This document shows, in pieces, positions 10,713-28,079 of a stretch of 30,927 nucleotides of DNA. Position 1 is the stretch's first letter, and every line of letters starts with the position of its first letter. The DNA is taken from NCBI RefSeq assembly GCF_000003605.2, contig NW_003156233.1, forward strand, positions 195,959 to 226,885, read 5' to 3'. Under the pieces are notes generated by a model that worked only from the letters and a program-made list of their open reading frames with translations, did not search any database and was not told the DNA's origin. The translations under genes were made by a program, and so were the position numbers. This DNA comes from Saccoglossus kowalevskii. Its lineage: Eukaryota > Hemichordata > Enteropneusta > Harrimaniidae.

Positions 10713-10878
10713 ATGATGAAAGAAACAGTAATGACCTATGATCATCCTGTGGTCTCGGAAGCTGTGAAGGTAAAAGCTGAAACGCCCAAACCGAGTCAAC
10801 TCCGCGCAGCTATACCCGCCATGCACATATGCGCCGCGGTAACCTGTTTAGTATTGAATATATGTATTCCGGGACTAG
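10713..10878 (+). CDS. Spec3/Stum gene, coding exon 1
   Basis: Encodes residues 1-55, ending LNICIPGL plus one base of the Gly56 codon. The donor is CTAG|GTAAGA at 10878/10879. The start has A at -3 (ACGAAAATGATG). The continuing open frame to 10922 is intron read-through. A 126-codon minus-strand frame over 10446-10826 is the antisense shadow of this exon and its 5' region. Confidence 0.88.
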
Positions 10879-13800
10879 GTAAGACTACATTATTACTGGC
10901 TCTGTGTATGTGTTCAATATAATTAAACGTCGAATAATGGCGAAATTTAAATTCGCTTTTCTGTGTAAAAATAATCAGAAAATCAAAGCGAACAATCGAT
11001 ATTTACACCACTATCTTAGATTGATATGCATTCTCAACAATAATAATTTATCTGTGTAGTGTTTGGAGACGTAATTGTTGTCAGTCTCGTTATTTCTCTA
11101 CTCAAAGTGTATTTACACCTTTATATATTACCTGAGTGATTGTTCTCCGCATAGTTAATAACAACGGATAGTGTATATAGTTTAAATGGTACATTCGTCT
11201 AATATCACATTGAATTCCCCTTTATTTCATTGCCTTTTTTGGTTGATTTAGTATTGAAATAATACTGGCTTATTAATTATACATGATTTATGTTCCACTA
11301 GTCCTGCCTTATCTGTTTCATTTTCTCAAGGTATCCATGGGATTGCAATTGAAAGATTCACTTCTACACGTGCAACTGTGTTATTTGGATTCATGCTGCT
11401 AAAATATGCGCGATCGTGTGTGCATGTGTTTCGTGTATTCAATTCTATTCCCTCTTCTCTAGTTAAAAGTAGATGTCTCTTGACACTGGAACGATCTATA
11501 TCGCCATAATTTAAAGAATCGTTATGGACTAATTAATAGTACGTATAAGTAATTCACAACGCATGCGCATACGCGTAGCGTCGTCAAACAAATTGTTTTC
11601 GCAAACAAAAACAACATTTTTATTTTATGATGAATCCAGAGTCAATTAAAGATGCAATGTGAGCAAAAGCATGTTTTCTTTTAATAATGTTGTTCGAAAC
11701 TCCATATAAAAATGTCGCGTTTGCCGGATACACAGCTGTGTTCTTTAGATGAAAGAAAATAAAATGAAACACGGTGCAATGACTGTTATTATACGAACCA
11801 AAACAACCGGGGCGCATGCGTATTAGAGAATACTCAGTTGTGTGTAGCGTTTTCCGTTCATGGTAAATTATATTGCAATGTATCTATTAATATAAACATC
11901 AAACAACAATATTAAAATTGCATATTGTGGTTCCTGTTACGTTGTTAACATGTCACAATCAATCAACCAAAACATAACAGAAATACTCAAAATCATCTAC
12001 ATGTTGGCATCGACAACCATGTTAGCCACTGATAACGTCCCACGAGAACGTCTCTGTAAATCTCCTCCCTGAATTGCCACAAGTCAACGTACTCAAACCA
12101 CGGAGGATTTGATTTGAGGTTATTAGTTGATCTCGCGTGTCGTTTATATTGGGAAGCAATTCATGATTGCATGGGAACTAACATCTGCTGTAGTATAAAT
12201 CCATTATTTTGATTTCAATTTGTCTGTCAACATTAACACTTAGCGTGTGCTTACTTCCAGCCATTTTGAAATGTTAGTTCATTTTACAATCTGACGTGTA
12301 AACAGTAAACTCCCTGTGAAACAATGCACGCGCGCAATGAATATGAAACCAACTTAATCAACCACAGTGTGCGTCCAAAGAGTTTTCCCCCATCATGTTT
12401 AAAGCGCGGCAGTCGGCGCGCTGCGCATGTGCGAGATATATGGGTCTCATATAAATAAAGATGGCGACTTTGATTGTTGCGCAGATCAACGCGTACGAAC
12501 TGAGACGTTTCCAAGCTTTAATTAAGTAATTTTCATGTTGTTGGAAGGCATCGAAGGAGTCACCGGCGGTAATCAGTGCAAGTCGCGCCCAGGTCAAACC
12601 TCATACTTGTGATTCCCATTTGAAGAGCGCATTGAATTGTGGGAAAATCAATGTTTATCAACACAAATGTGGTACATGCGCAGCTCGACGACTACCGCGC
12701 TTTAAGTTTTTCGAAGTAACATTTCGTACATACTCGCATTAGACAATCGTGCGGCGATAAATTAACCTGTCATTCCATCGAAAATTACTCTAAAGATAAG
12801 ATAATTGACTTAAAATTTACAATGACGCTGCAATCATTGATCGTCGTTTTTTCAATATGTATATAGAGATTCCGAATTCGCATATATTTGTATTTGACAT
12901 TTGAATCACCGTGACTTAGTATATATTATCGAAAGTTCATTGTGATCTACTCGGATAATGAGCAGGCATTATTGTGTCTAAAGCGTTTAAGTATCGCCGA
13001 TAAAATTAAAACCAACGATATTACTTCGTAATTGCATTCAAAATCGGTGATAGGAACATTACAGATGTATCTAATGTGGAGTCATGTCTATATTGGACGG
13101 CACTCATTCAAAGTGTTAATACACGACTCTGGAGAAATAGTAAGTTAATTATACAAACAACGATTAATGGAAAGAAATCACATTTAGTCGACTAGAGTTT
13201 TTTTGAATTAAGTTTGTGAGTGGCCAATCTGTATTCCGGGTCCGATCGGAGTAGCGTGGGAGATTGCGACGCACTGCCAGGATATTTATAAACCTAATCC
13301 ACGATAAGCCACGGAAGATCCATTTTCCCTGTGTTCATCGACAAACTGATTACTTTAATTCCTAGCAAATCAAATAACCTCGTATATTTTTTTCTCAGGT
13401 ACTGCTGTTGCTGGATTTTCAGTATTTTGTTGTGCCAATCCAGGTCAATCCAGTAACGGGAAGGCAGGCACATGTTGTATTAATTTCTGGGTTGGCGTTG
13501 TCCAGTTAGCTACCTGCTGGATTTTTTTCATTGGTTGGATATGGAGCGTGCTTTGGGGAATTGCCTTCGTTGCCATGTCAAGTAAGTATACACACTCTTT
13601 AACACTCTCGGTACCCGGGTGAGAACTACAGGCTACGTGAGATAATGGAATGCCAACACGTTTTAGTTCAAGTGACCGTACAGATTGGTGTGTGAGTGCG
13701 GTTACGTATGTCGTTCCTTTGACGCGTAAGTGGACTAAATGAAAGGATGTGGCGAATCGGAAAAATCCGTTGCACGCTTAACATAGCGGAAACTCACTGC

Positions 13801-15399
13801 ACAGGATGGTTGTCATAACAAGAAGGGGAATCACGTACTAACGCGCGGGAATTGAGTCCTAGGCGACGATAACAACACACGCTAAAAACACAAAGGCTCA
13901 TGGGTAGACGCTTGCTTGTAAACAATGACACCCTATGGCCATCTGACGCATGCGCAGGTGACGACTCCCCCGCTTTAACGTTGACGTGGTTCAGCCACAT
14001 ACGATAATGTATTGATTATGATTATGTCAACATATTTACATATTAAGTACGTTTGCCAGTTCTTGTCCAAATAATATTTCGAGTTCAGTAACAGGATTGG
14101 ATACTGGAGTAAGGAAATCCACAGTGAATATTTTATAAAAACACTTAGCAATCCACAGTGAATATTTTATAAAAACACTTAGCTTTGAATTAAGTGAAAG
14201 AAATTGGTACTTAGTTGTAATACTGTTATTGGGCATTAGATACGTCATATTTAATCTCGGGGGACCGATCACCTTACACAATTACCATGTTTAGAATAAC
14301 GAGGTTGTGTTCAATAATTGACAGCTGCTGGTCGCCAGTTACTCATGTAAGATTACACTTTAGATAAAAATTGGCAGGTGCCAGTTTTGTATGGATGTAT
14401 TGAGATTAATGAGGGTACATACTTCTCTAAGTACATAGACATGTTTAAGAAACGGCACGGCGCAAAATAACAGGTTATTAAATACATTTTTTGAAAAATA
14501 TGTGTTGTAGTCTTCGAACAGCGCGCTTTCGATTTCATGTAAACAAACAATGTACTTTACACGCGTTGTATACTATAAGATCCACATCGAACACGACAAG
14601 GGCGATGACCCTGGTGTTTTAATGTTCGACGCTAAACACACACTTTCTGTCCCTGAATGTGCTGATCCGGGGTAAAATATAGATAAACAACCCATTTGGA
14701 TAAAATTTGTATGTATATTTAGTAACGACAAGGCATAAAAATGCATTAGTATGGATGATAGTTGCCCGGAACTCAGTATTGTGGAAGCTCGTCAAGTCAA
14801 GTACATGGCTGGTAAAGATGATGTTTTCCGCGTTGCTTGCCCGGGAGCTTTATTCCATATAAGGACATCCTTACGGCATATACACGTCGCGATATCATCG
14901 TTGATGAAATGTGCTATGAATATACGGAGCAGAAGAAACAGTATTAGTTAAATCCTCTGTGAATACGAACTGATTGGATCAGGCTGAATCAGTAGAATCC
15001 AAATAGAATAATCAAAATTATGAAATTGGAAGCGATGCATGGTGGACAATAAGGTGAATAAAAACCTCATGAAAAGCTATTACTGATACACAGTACTGTC
15101 TGGGAGAAAATACAAAAAGTGTAAAAAAATGTATGATATACAGATATTGGGTTACCACGAATACATGATACGTCGGTCAGTCATGTGCACGGTTTTATTA
15201 AACTAAATGTAAAATTCATTGTGAGGCGTTGAGTTATTTTAATGCATATTTGTTCTTTTAATCTACAGGTGAATACAATCCAGACAATAGAGCTATTATT
15301 ACGTTGTCATCCGTATCTCAACCGTCATCCGGGTATGCTACGCCGACGTCTAGCGAAGAGGTGCAGCTATACCAAGCTGGACTTAAAACATATACTTAA
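10713..15399 (+). CDS. Spec3/Stum-family membrane protein (three coding exons, spliced)
   Basis: Joining 10713-10878, 13399-13581 and 15269-15399 gives 480 nt, or 159 residues plus TAA. Residues 1-28 are a polar N-terminal tail. Residues about 36-67 form the first hydrophobic region, with the family signature LVLNICIPGLGTAVAGFSVF followed by CC. Then comes a short loop (NPGQSSNGKAGTCC), a second hydrophobic segment rich in Trp (about 85-114, FWVGVVQLATCWIFFIGWIW), and a Ser/Thr/Tyr-rich C-tail. This is the Spec3 domain of sea-urchin Spec3, a ciliary and Golgi protein of embryonic ectoderm, and of Drosophila Stum, needed for mechanosensing by proprioceptive neurons. Vertebrate STUM has a similar length. 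Both introns are phase 1. A ciliary or sensory-cell role is inferred from family. ATGATG is chosen as start because an in-frame TGA lies at 10671-10673. However, TTTTCACAG at 10676-10684 could be a splice acceptor, so an extra upstream exon is possible. Orthology to Spec3 or Stum specifically is not resolved. Confidence 0.88.
11646..11890. repeat. TTAA-type MITE, family C, copy 3 (diverged)
   Basis: Begins TTAAAGATGCAATGTGAG, as in the copy at 1723. It shares with the copy at 439 the block TGACTGTTATTATACGA, then AACCAAAACAACC and GCGCATGCGTATTAGAGA. The right boundary is uncertain; TTGCAATGTATCTATTAA, ending at a TTAA at 11887-11890, is the best candidate. A 65-codon minus-strand frame inside it is not a gene. 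Confidence 0.5.
12399..12705 (+). repeat. TTAA-flanked MITE, family A, copy 1
   Basis: A 307-bp element including its TTAA duplications (12399-12402 and 12702-12705), with roughly 34-bp terminal inverted repeats. The left end reads TTAAAGCGCGGCAGTCGG and the inverted right end reads TTAAAGCGCGGTAGTCGT, with about four mismatches over the repeat. The interior includes GATATATGGGTCTCATATAA, AAGATGGCGACTTTGA and GAGTCACCGGCGGTAA. It is closely similar along its full length to the copy at 15396. No transposase is encoded. Ends and target site fit Kolobok-like or piggyBac-like non-autonomous elements. Confidence 0.88.
13399..13581 (+). CDS. Spec3/Stum gene, coding exon 2
   Basis: A 183-nt symmetric (phase 1-1) exon between TTTTTTTCTCAG and CAA|GTAAGT. 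It encodes the end of the first hydrophobic region, two CC pairs (residues 66-67 and 81-82) and the entire Trp-rich second membrane segment to Ser116. This is the diagnostic core of the family. It is shorter than a 60-codon ATG-started ORF would require, so simple ORF calling misses it. Confidence 0.93.
13840..13978 (-). repeat. TTAA-type MITE, family B, copy 1 (left end lost)
   Basis: Matches the reverse complement of the element at 26992-27132. Shared blocks are ACGCGCGGGAATTGAGTC, AAAGGCTCATGGGTAGACGC, TTGTAAACAATGACAC and TATGGCCATCTGACGCATG, then GCGCAGGTGACGACTC ending at CGCTTTAA (TTAA 13975-13978). The left terminal repeat is not recognisable before about 13840. The middle carries about 25 bases (AACAACACACGCTAAAAACA and flanks) that are absent from the other copy. 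The overlapping open frame 13794-14000 gets its peptide from this repeat. Confidence 0.75.
14116..14183. repeat. Perfect 34-bp tandem duplication
   Basis: The unit begins AATCCACAGTGAATATTT and ends AAAACACTTAGC. It occurs at 14116-14149 and again, without a mismatch, at 14150-14183. The exact identity implies a recent duplication, or possibly an assembly artefact. Confidence 0.95.
15269..15399 (+). CDS. Spec3/Stum gene, coding exon 3 (terminal)
   Basis: Starts after TTTAATCTACAG. The first two bases complete Ser117. It encodes a 43-residue hydrophilic C-tail (SEYNPDN, then a Ser/Thr-rich stretch, then EEVQLYQAGLKTYT) and ends at TAA 15397-15399. The stop codon lies within the TTAA target site (15396-15399) of the family A MITE that follows directly, so the 3' untranslated region begins inside that transposon. 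Confidence 0.87.
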
Positions 15400-15695
15400 A
15401 GGGCGGTAGTCGTCGCGCCACGCATGCGCGAGATATATGGGTTTCATATAAACAAAGATGGCGACTTTGACTGTTGCGCAGATCAATGAGTACAAACTGA
15501 GACGTTACGAAGCTTTAATTTAGTTTTTTTTCTAGGTGGTTGTAAAGTATCGAATGAGTCACCGGCGGTAAGTCGCGCCAAGGAAAAACCTCATACTTGT
15601 GATTTCCATTAGTAGAGCACATTGGATTGTGGGAAAATCACTGTTTATCAACAAAAATGTCGCACATGCGCAGCGCGACGACTGCCGCGCTTTAA
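15396..15695 (+). repeat. TTAA-flanked MITE, family A, copy 2, inserted at the stop codon
   Basis: A 300-bp element bounded by TTAA at 15396-15399 and 15692-15695. The left end TTAAAGGGCGGTAGTCG pairs with the inverted right end TTAAAGCGCGGCAGTCG. It is collinear with the copy at 12399 (GATATATGGGTTTCATATAA, AAGATGGCGACTTTGA, GAGTCACCGGCGGTAAG, GGATTGTGGGAAAATCA). The Spec3/Stum codons ACT TAA read directly into the left TTAA. The empty site would have read ACTTAACTCTGACC, which keeps the same stop. The insertion therefore changed the 3' untranslated region but not the protein. Confidence 0.9.
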
Positions 15696-15997
15696 CTCTG
15701 ACCGACATGGACACATAACGCAGTTTTGTTGTTGGCTTTTTAAAGTGAATATGTACTAACATTGCGGGTATGATATAGTTGGGTGTCCGCCTGCATCCTC
15801 TAACCCACCGGAATTAAGAACATGCAGTGATGTCATGGTATCGACACTGCGTTTCGTTATAGAAAGATGCATGGGCTACAAAGGTGTTTATGCTACGTGA
15901 ATCGCATAAGTGGACTTTATTTAACTGCTTCTGTTGTGGACTTTACTCTTGCCTGATTGCAGGCAGTTTATTTCTATGGTGATGCCTTTGAAGACAC

Positions 15998-16011
15998 GTC
16001 ACCATGGTAAC
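15998..16011. promoter_or_regulatory. Perfect RFX X-box motif
   Basis: GTCACCATGGTAAC matches GTNRCCNNRGYAAC at all 14 positions. RFX factors bind X-boxes to activate ciliary genes. The site is about 600 bp downstream of the stop codon of a Spec3-family gene, within or next to its 3' untranslated region. X-boxes usually sit in promoters, so a regulatory role here is inference. Confidence 0.45.
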
Positions 16012-16141
16012 CATCGTCCTTTCGTTGTTGATAAAATCGCTGCGTTCGTTGATTACAATACTTAACCATCCTTATAGGAACGCCTTCAAGTTGCGAGCAT
16101 CAATTTTTCATCGTGTTGTCGTGTTCTTATAATTTCGTTTA

Positions 16142-16147
16142 AATAAA
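16142..16147 (+). terminator. Polyadenylation signal of the Spec3/Stum gene
   Basis: AATAAA, followed by a U/GU-rich stretch (TTTTGTATCATTTGTTGT) within about 25 bases, as expected of a cleavage and polyadenylation site. It is the first well-formed signal seen after the stop at 15399. Confidence 0.55.
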
Positions 16148-16194
16148 CGAGTTTTGTATCATTTGTTGTACAACCAATCTATCGTTCATCGAGT

Positions 16195-26991: not shown

Positions 26992-27132
26992 TTAAAAGCG
27001 GCGGAGTCGTCACCTGCGCATGCGTCAGATGGCCATAGCGTGTCATTGTTTACAAACAAGCGTCTACCCATGAGCCTTTGCGCTTCTGACTCAATTCCCG
27101 CGCGTGCGCAGGTGACGACCCTCCCGCTTTAA
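26992..27132 (+). repeat. TTAA-flanked MITE, family B, copy 2
   Basis: A 141-bp element bounded by TTAA at 26992-26995 and 27129-27132. The left end is TTAAAAGCGGCGGAGTCGTC. The inverted right end is TTAAAGCGGGAGGGTCGTC, followed in both by ACCTGCGCA, so the terminal repeats make up nearly half of the element. It is the inverse of the truncated copy at 13840. The open frame 26932-27132 and the one at 13794-14000 share a peptide core (SSPAHASDGH, VSLFT, KRLPMSLC) only because they are translations of this repeat. Confidence 0.85.
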
Positions 27133-27371: not shown

Positions 27372-28079
27372 CAATATAGCAATATAATCAGACATGCAAT
27401 GATTTGAATAGTTTTCTATCAAGTTCGAAATAATAATACTATTACCATTTCTTACCTAAATTCTTCTAATATTTTCTTTTGTTAACAATTGACTGTTCAA
27501 TTTCATTGTGGGTAGATATTATTTCCGTTAAAGATAAACGCGACTATTGACACAACAAACCTGAAATAGTTCTAAATTCTTCCCAGTTACTGACTATTTG
27601 AAAACCCATCAATATTGCAATATAATCAGACATAGAATAATTTGAATTATTTTTCCATCAAGTTCGAAATAATAATACTATTACCATACTTATCTAAATT
27701 ATTCTAATATTTTCTTTTGTTAGCAATTGACTGTTCAATTTCATTGTGGGTAGATATTATTTCCGTTAAAGATAAACGCCACTATTGACACAACAAATCT
27801 GAAATAGTTCTAAATTCTTCCCAGTTACTGACTATTTGAAAACCCATCAATATTGCAATATAATCAGACATAGAATAATTTGAATTATTTTTCCATCAAG
27901 TTCGAAATAATAATACTATTACCATACTTATCTAAATTATTCTAATATTTTCTTTGCTTAACAACTGACTGTTCAATTTCATTGTGGCTAGATATTATTT
28001 TTGTTAAGGATGAACGTAACTAAAATCTCCTGAAATAGTCCTAAATTCTTCCCAGTTACTAACTATTTGAAAAACCGGC
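27372..28079. repeat. Tandem array, three copies of a 238-bp unit
   Basis: Units start at 27372, 27610 and 27848 (CAATATWGCAATATAATC). Each contains CAAGTTCGAAATAATAATAC, then TTCAATTTCATTGTGG, then TCTTCCCAGTTACT. Spacing is exactly 238 bp twice; the third copy is a few bases shorter because of a deletion near 28015. The first half of copy 1 and the second half of copy 3 are the most diverged. The inner halves are almost identical, as expected after unequal crossing-over. The units are non-coding. Confidence 0.93.

Follow-up and report, generated by a model that had tools for sequence, protein, structure and literature searches.

What did a transposable element that lies exactly at the stop codon of a gene change there, and did it reach this position by chance? 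The question is raised by a Spec3/Stum-like gene of Saccoglossus kowalevskii, whose stop codon is contained in the left target-site duplication of a miniature element (MITE). We analysed the whole stretch of DNA around this gene, 30,927 nucleotides in length (the window), and positions are counted from its first letter.

The Spec3/Stum-like gene and the element at its end

The gene is composed of three exons on the plus strand, with coding parts at 10713–10878 (exon 1), 13399–13581 (exon 2) and 15269–15399 (exon 3, with the stop TAA at 15397–15399). Both introns are GT-AG and phase 1, and the model encodes 159 aa followed by TAA. Exons 1 and 2 are defined by the splice model and a match to the Pfam family Spec3 (PF15795), for exon 1 together with its translation. 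The match covers residues 32–116 and the complete profile (1–85 of 85; E = 2.8e-30), with a score of 105.1 bits that lies above the gathering score of 27. Exon 3 falls outside this domain. Its probable coding status is based on the splice acceptor, a frame that agrees with the phase-1 junction and the open frame itself. Taken alone, the open frame gives modest support, because exon 3 can also be read without stops in another forward frame and 71 of the 1558 43-codon stretches of intron 2 (4.6%) are open as well. A perfect 34-bp tandem duplication is also observed in intron 2 (14116–14183).

As expected for animal DNA, no Spec3 relatives were confirmed in the viral collection, which was searched with an inexact query, or in the prokaryote collection. 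Literature searches with peptides of the protein and for texts naming both Spec3 and stum gave no matches. Nine of the 28 open reading frames of at least 80 aa in the window were scanned against Pfam; none matched at the curated cut-off, the one weak match scoring 13.7 versus 30 bits.

The element, copy A, occupies 15396–15695 on the plus strand and measures 300 bp including both TTAA copies. The left target-site duplication (15396–15399) contains the stop codon, and the right one is found at 15692–15695. The 44-nt terminal inverted repeats (15396–15439 and 15652–15695) are 82% complementary. A scan of every TTAA pair 60–1500 bp apart in the window, scored for complementary terminal bases out of 16, returned two pairs with at least 14 (copy A and 12399–12705), whereas 50 dinucleotide shuffles averaged 0.0. 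At a threshold of 12/16, two pairs were obtained versus 0.46 in dinucleotide shuffles.

The second pair delimits copy B (12399–12705, plus strand), which lies in intron 1 in the same orientation as copy A, with TTAA at both ends. Aligned end to end, the two copies are 84.1% identical across 309 columns (blastn); counted over ungapped columns, 260 of 298 agree, alongside 11 columns with gaps and a K2P distance of 0.14. Outside the TTAA, 10 of 40 and 11 of 40 flanking bases agree, which is about the chance level. The boundaries of copy A are firm because copy B has its terminal TTAA at the corresponding positions, beyond which the similarity does not extend. A and B plainly form one family, and they are the two full copies of the element within the window.

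Copy A is thus short, has terminal inverted repeats and target-site duplications at both ends, and belongs with dispersed copies in unrelated flanks. At 300 bp it is too short to encode a transposase; it overlaps a single stop-to-stop reading frame of 80 aa or more (15559–15813, minus strand, 84 aa), which extends beyond the element. These observations support copy A as a TTAA-duplicating MITE with exact boundaries. An initial sequence-only reading had placed a 300-bp element between the same TTAA pair, with the stop of exon 3 (ACT TAA) held in the left duplication; the 44-nt arms and the common boundaries of copy B confirm the former point, and the gene model the latter. The insertion is neat and well preserved but ordinary, and it lies at the first position of the 3′ untranslated region (UTR). 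Terminal inverted repeats need not be identical at the time of insertion, and dating the event from the two repeats was therefore rejected as a method. The observed/expected CpG ratio is 1.11 in the whole window and 1.59 in copy A, with no sign of methylation-driven CpG loss.

Two further elements may be related to copy A, solely through the similarity of their ends. Element C (13891–13978, plus strand), in intron 2, consists of a single end that terminates in TTAA; its final 30 bases show 87% similarity to A's right end, and no inverted partner was found for it in 13790–14000. Element D (26992–27132, plus strand), located some 11 kb beyond the 3′ end of the gene, resembles C and is 141 bp long, with TTAA at both ends and 30-nt arms that are 87% complementary. 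With copy A as the query, blastn matched the end of C but not D. An ungapped scan for the 31-base ends with up to 11 mismatches recovered nothing other than the two ends of A and the two of B. The TTAA-pair scan missed D owing to an extra base at its left end.

The repeats of the window also contain short motifs. We searched both strands with up to two mismatches for YGCGCAYGCGCR, which we take to be the NRF1 motif, and obtained 29 matches versus 4.5 expected, palindromic sites being counted twice. Twelve of the 29 fall within the termini of A–D, eight in the repeat pair 508–757/1752–1987 and six at 11558–11822; the places are 566–623, 1874–1929, 11558–11822, 12422, 13945, 15419, 15661, 27015 and 27099. 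A presumably YY1-like motif, AAGATGGCGAC, is present in both full copies not far inside the left end (12458–12468 in B, 15455–15465 in A). With up to one mismatch it has six matches in the window versus 0.43 expected, four of the six outside the elements. The elements may thus carry promoter-type motifs. The dispersed repeats at 508–757 and 1752–1987 form an inverted pair, 73.7% identical across 255 columns, and terminal inverted repeats were found in neither. A tandem array at 27372–28073 is composed of three 238-bp units with 92% matches.

Superfamily placement from termini and target site

Seven element ends are readable, both ends of A, B and D and the one of C. All seven show TTAA, followed by RR in every case and by AG in six; the left end of D has one extra A ahead of AG. 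The ends of A and B read AGGGCGG and AGCGCGG, copy A starting with AGGGC at its left end and AGCGC at its right end. According to the available part of the source (PMC6004289), the Kolobok superfamily is characterized by a TTAA target and RR termini, and the tabulated full-length Xenopus copies start with AG. The ends in the window agree with this combination of a TTAA duplication and RR (AG) termini. The AGGRR termini of T2-MITEs are absent, and so is the CCYT that piggyBac ends carry in the accessible text of PMC2872659. Because AG termini adjoin the TTAA, unlike the CCYT of piggyBac, the element fits a Kolobok-like MITE, a placement made by termini and target-site duplication alone that does not amount to proof.

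Two other identities were considered and rejected. The termini (AG, not CCYT) rule out piggyBac. A TA duplication of the Tc1/mariner type, with ends starting AAG, was rejected because it would not require the outer base to complete a TTAA, as it does at all seven readable ends.

No transposase was found for the element. Exact patterns from its ends and interior had no matches in the viral and prokaryote sequence collections, exact patterns of the C/D kind had none in the viral collection, and Rfam gave none on the whole window at the gathering threshold. No end sequences for comparison were obtained from the available portion of PMC10294476, and among the literature matches listed for strings from the element ends, all concerned unrelated subjects.

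Changes at the stop codon

In the left TTAA, the first T closes the last sense codon (ACT) and the remaining letters are the stop TAA. When the element is removed together with one TTAA, the joined flanks read ACT TAA CTC TGA CC, with the stop and the protein unchanged, just as the sequence-only reading had proposed. The end of the protein is kept because the insertion duplicates TTAA. The coding sequence contains three TTAA sites, and solely the one at the stop has its TAA in frame. For an element that duplicates TTAA this is true by construction: a TTAA with an in-frame TAA can be nothing but a stop, and insertion there keeps the protein.

That reading also held that the element founded a new start of the 3′ UTR with the protein untouched. 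The protein is indeed unchanged; the description is incomplete in that the surroundings of the stop were altered in two respects. The base after the stop (+4) became A in place of C because the element begins with A, as any such element would cause. Moreover, a reserve in-frame TGA, which in the joined flanks lies one sense codon past the stop, was displaced by the insertion. The next in-frame stop is now met after 29 codons, inside the element, and a ribosome that reads through the TAA would therefore travel that far before terminating.

The first AATAAA downstream of the stop, at 16142–16147 on the plus strand, is a probable poly(A) signal and is followed by a T/G-rich stretch. On this strand copy A itself contains just a TATAAA (15447). 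Copy B has a sense-strand AATAAA at 12454–12459, within intron 1, where copy A reads AACAAA (15451–15456); the loss of a signal in A is not pressed, as the ancestral state does not follow from two copies.

Folded as RNA, copy A has a predicted stability of −107.1 kcal/mol versus −78.3 on average for 200 shuffles (sd 4.45), none of which was as stable. We also folded the 3′ UTR to an assumed end at 16165. The mean unpaired probability predicted for the first 36 bases past the stop is 0.16 with the element versus 0.39 in the joined flanks; the 3′ UTR now begins with a predicted hairpin. For the 13 bases up to and including the stop, the prediction is a rather more open state, with values of 0.70 with the element and 0.59 in the joined flanks.

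History of the insertion and comparison with known systems

We consider it highly probable that a non-autonomous Kolobok-like MITE hit the TTAA spanning the final sense codon and the stop, and that this was a tolerated chance insertion. The element would have been mobilised by a transposase encoded elsewhere. The target, a TTAA made up of the third letter of ACT plus the stop, and the boundaries are shown by the anatomy of the locus. Target duplication would then have preserved T|TAA on the left side of the element, and translation, as the sequence shows, still ends at the same codon. The element would now supply the first 296 bp past the stop and is probably transcribed through to the AATAAA at 16142. 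The position is most likely a chance hit, which would be tolerated because this is the sole coding TTAA with an in-frame TAA, so that insertion leaves the protein intact.

The insertion could instead be non-neutral, the hairpin-forming element with which the 3′ UTR begins and the altered stop context lowering or modulating translation of the Spec3 mRNA. We regard this as unlikely. The greater predicted stability of copy A relative to its shuffles and the reduced predicted accessibility of the 36 bases after the stop are compatible with it, as is the precedent of the rice gene Ghd2, where a MITE in the 3′ UTR represses translation (PMC5338036, in the part available). However, strong folding is expected from any element with long inverted repeats, and the stretch leading up to and including the stop is, if anything, predicted to be more accessible. 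In addition, the repression of Ghd2 acts mainly through the plant Dicer-like protein OsDCL3a, as stated in the same part of that source, and may not transfer to an animal. Still less likely is a derived C-terminus, with exon 3 having formerly continued or been spliced onward and the insertion having helped to fix it as the last exon. The location of exon 3 outside the conserved Pfam domain would allow for this, but the stop sits in the target-site duplication and so predates the insertion, unless the frame changed later upstream, and the joined flanks, TAA CTC TGA, offer a second in-frame stop.

A preference of these elements for stop codons or gene ends, beyond what TTAA content would produce, would account for one element lying exactly at a stop and for three of the four elements (A, B and end C) lying in one gene span. 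The window contains 251 TTAA sites, of which the full copies A and B account for two and D and end C for another two, and 52 of the 251 fall in the gene span (10713–16165). Under uniform insertion, three of four elements in this span have a probability of about 3%, to which we attach little weight, as there are four elements and the window was examined because of them. Against such a preference, B and C are intronic, D lies well beyond the gene, and one stop hit among four elements is no test in a window singled out after the fact. As an illustration, if 2,000 genes in a genome end in T|TAA, the number expected to carry an element at the stop is about 32 at an occupancy of 4/251, about 16 at 2/251 and about 3 at a tenth of 4/251. 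Some hits of this kind are thus expected by chance genome-wide, and one case therefore says nothing on stop preference. We consider such a preference extremely improbable, and the view that this locus clearly demonstrates a match between TTAA preference and a stop codon is not supported beyond coincidence, the site being one of 251 in the window.

As a single case, the locus shows cleanly how a 4-bp TTAA duplication can keep a stop codon intact, and it adds to the family a copy with well-defined boundaries. Its importance would grow only if such hits proved, across the genome, more frequent than TTAA content predicts, or if expression were affected by the changed stop context and the hairpin. 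A broader idea, which we hold to be very doubtful, is that T|TAA stops are protein-safe harbours and that Kolobok and piggyBac MITEs repeatedly founded the first bases of 3′ UTRs. If so, such elements would reset the stop context (to TAA-A where they start with A), displace reserve stops and add a hairpin, so that termination contexts created by transposons would form a recurring class. Among the titles listed by literature searches, none describes a TTAA-flanked element located at a stop, which is weak evidence of absence.

The chance insertion favoured here resembles known systems in several respects. Rice Ghd2 likewise carries an inverted element, of 217 nt, in its 3′ UTR, and transcription there ends 340 nt downstream; the phrase "stop codon", searched for the distance from that MITE to the stop, does not occur in the text available from PMC5338036. 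According to the same text, the Ghd2 MITE differs in being Stowaway-like and from a plant, and its effect on translation has been demonstrated, whereas the present case is known from sequence. The piggyBac MITEs of corals (CMITE) share the TTAA duplication and the small size (available part of PMC2872659), and differ by their CCYT ends from the AG found here. The T2-MITE/Kolobok elements of Xenopus, as described in the accessible part of PMC6004289, are alike in their TTAA duplication, in ends starting with AG and in being non-autonomous; this likeness is judged on termini, and at that level AGGGCGG and AGCGCGG of copies A and B set the present family apart from the AGGRR of T2.
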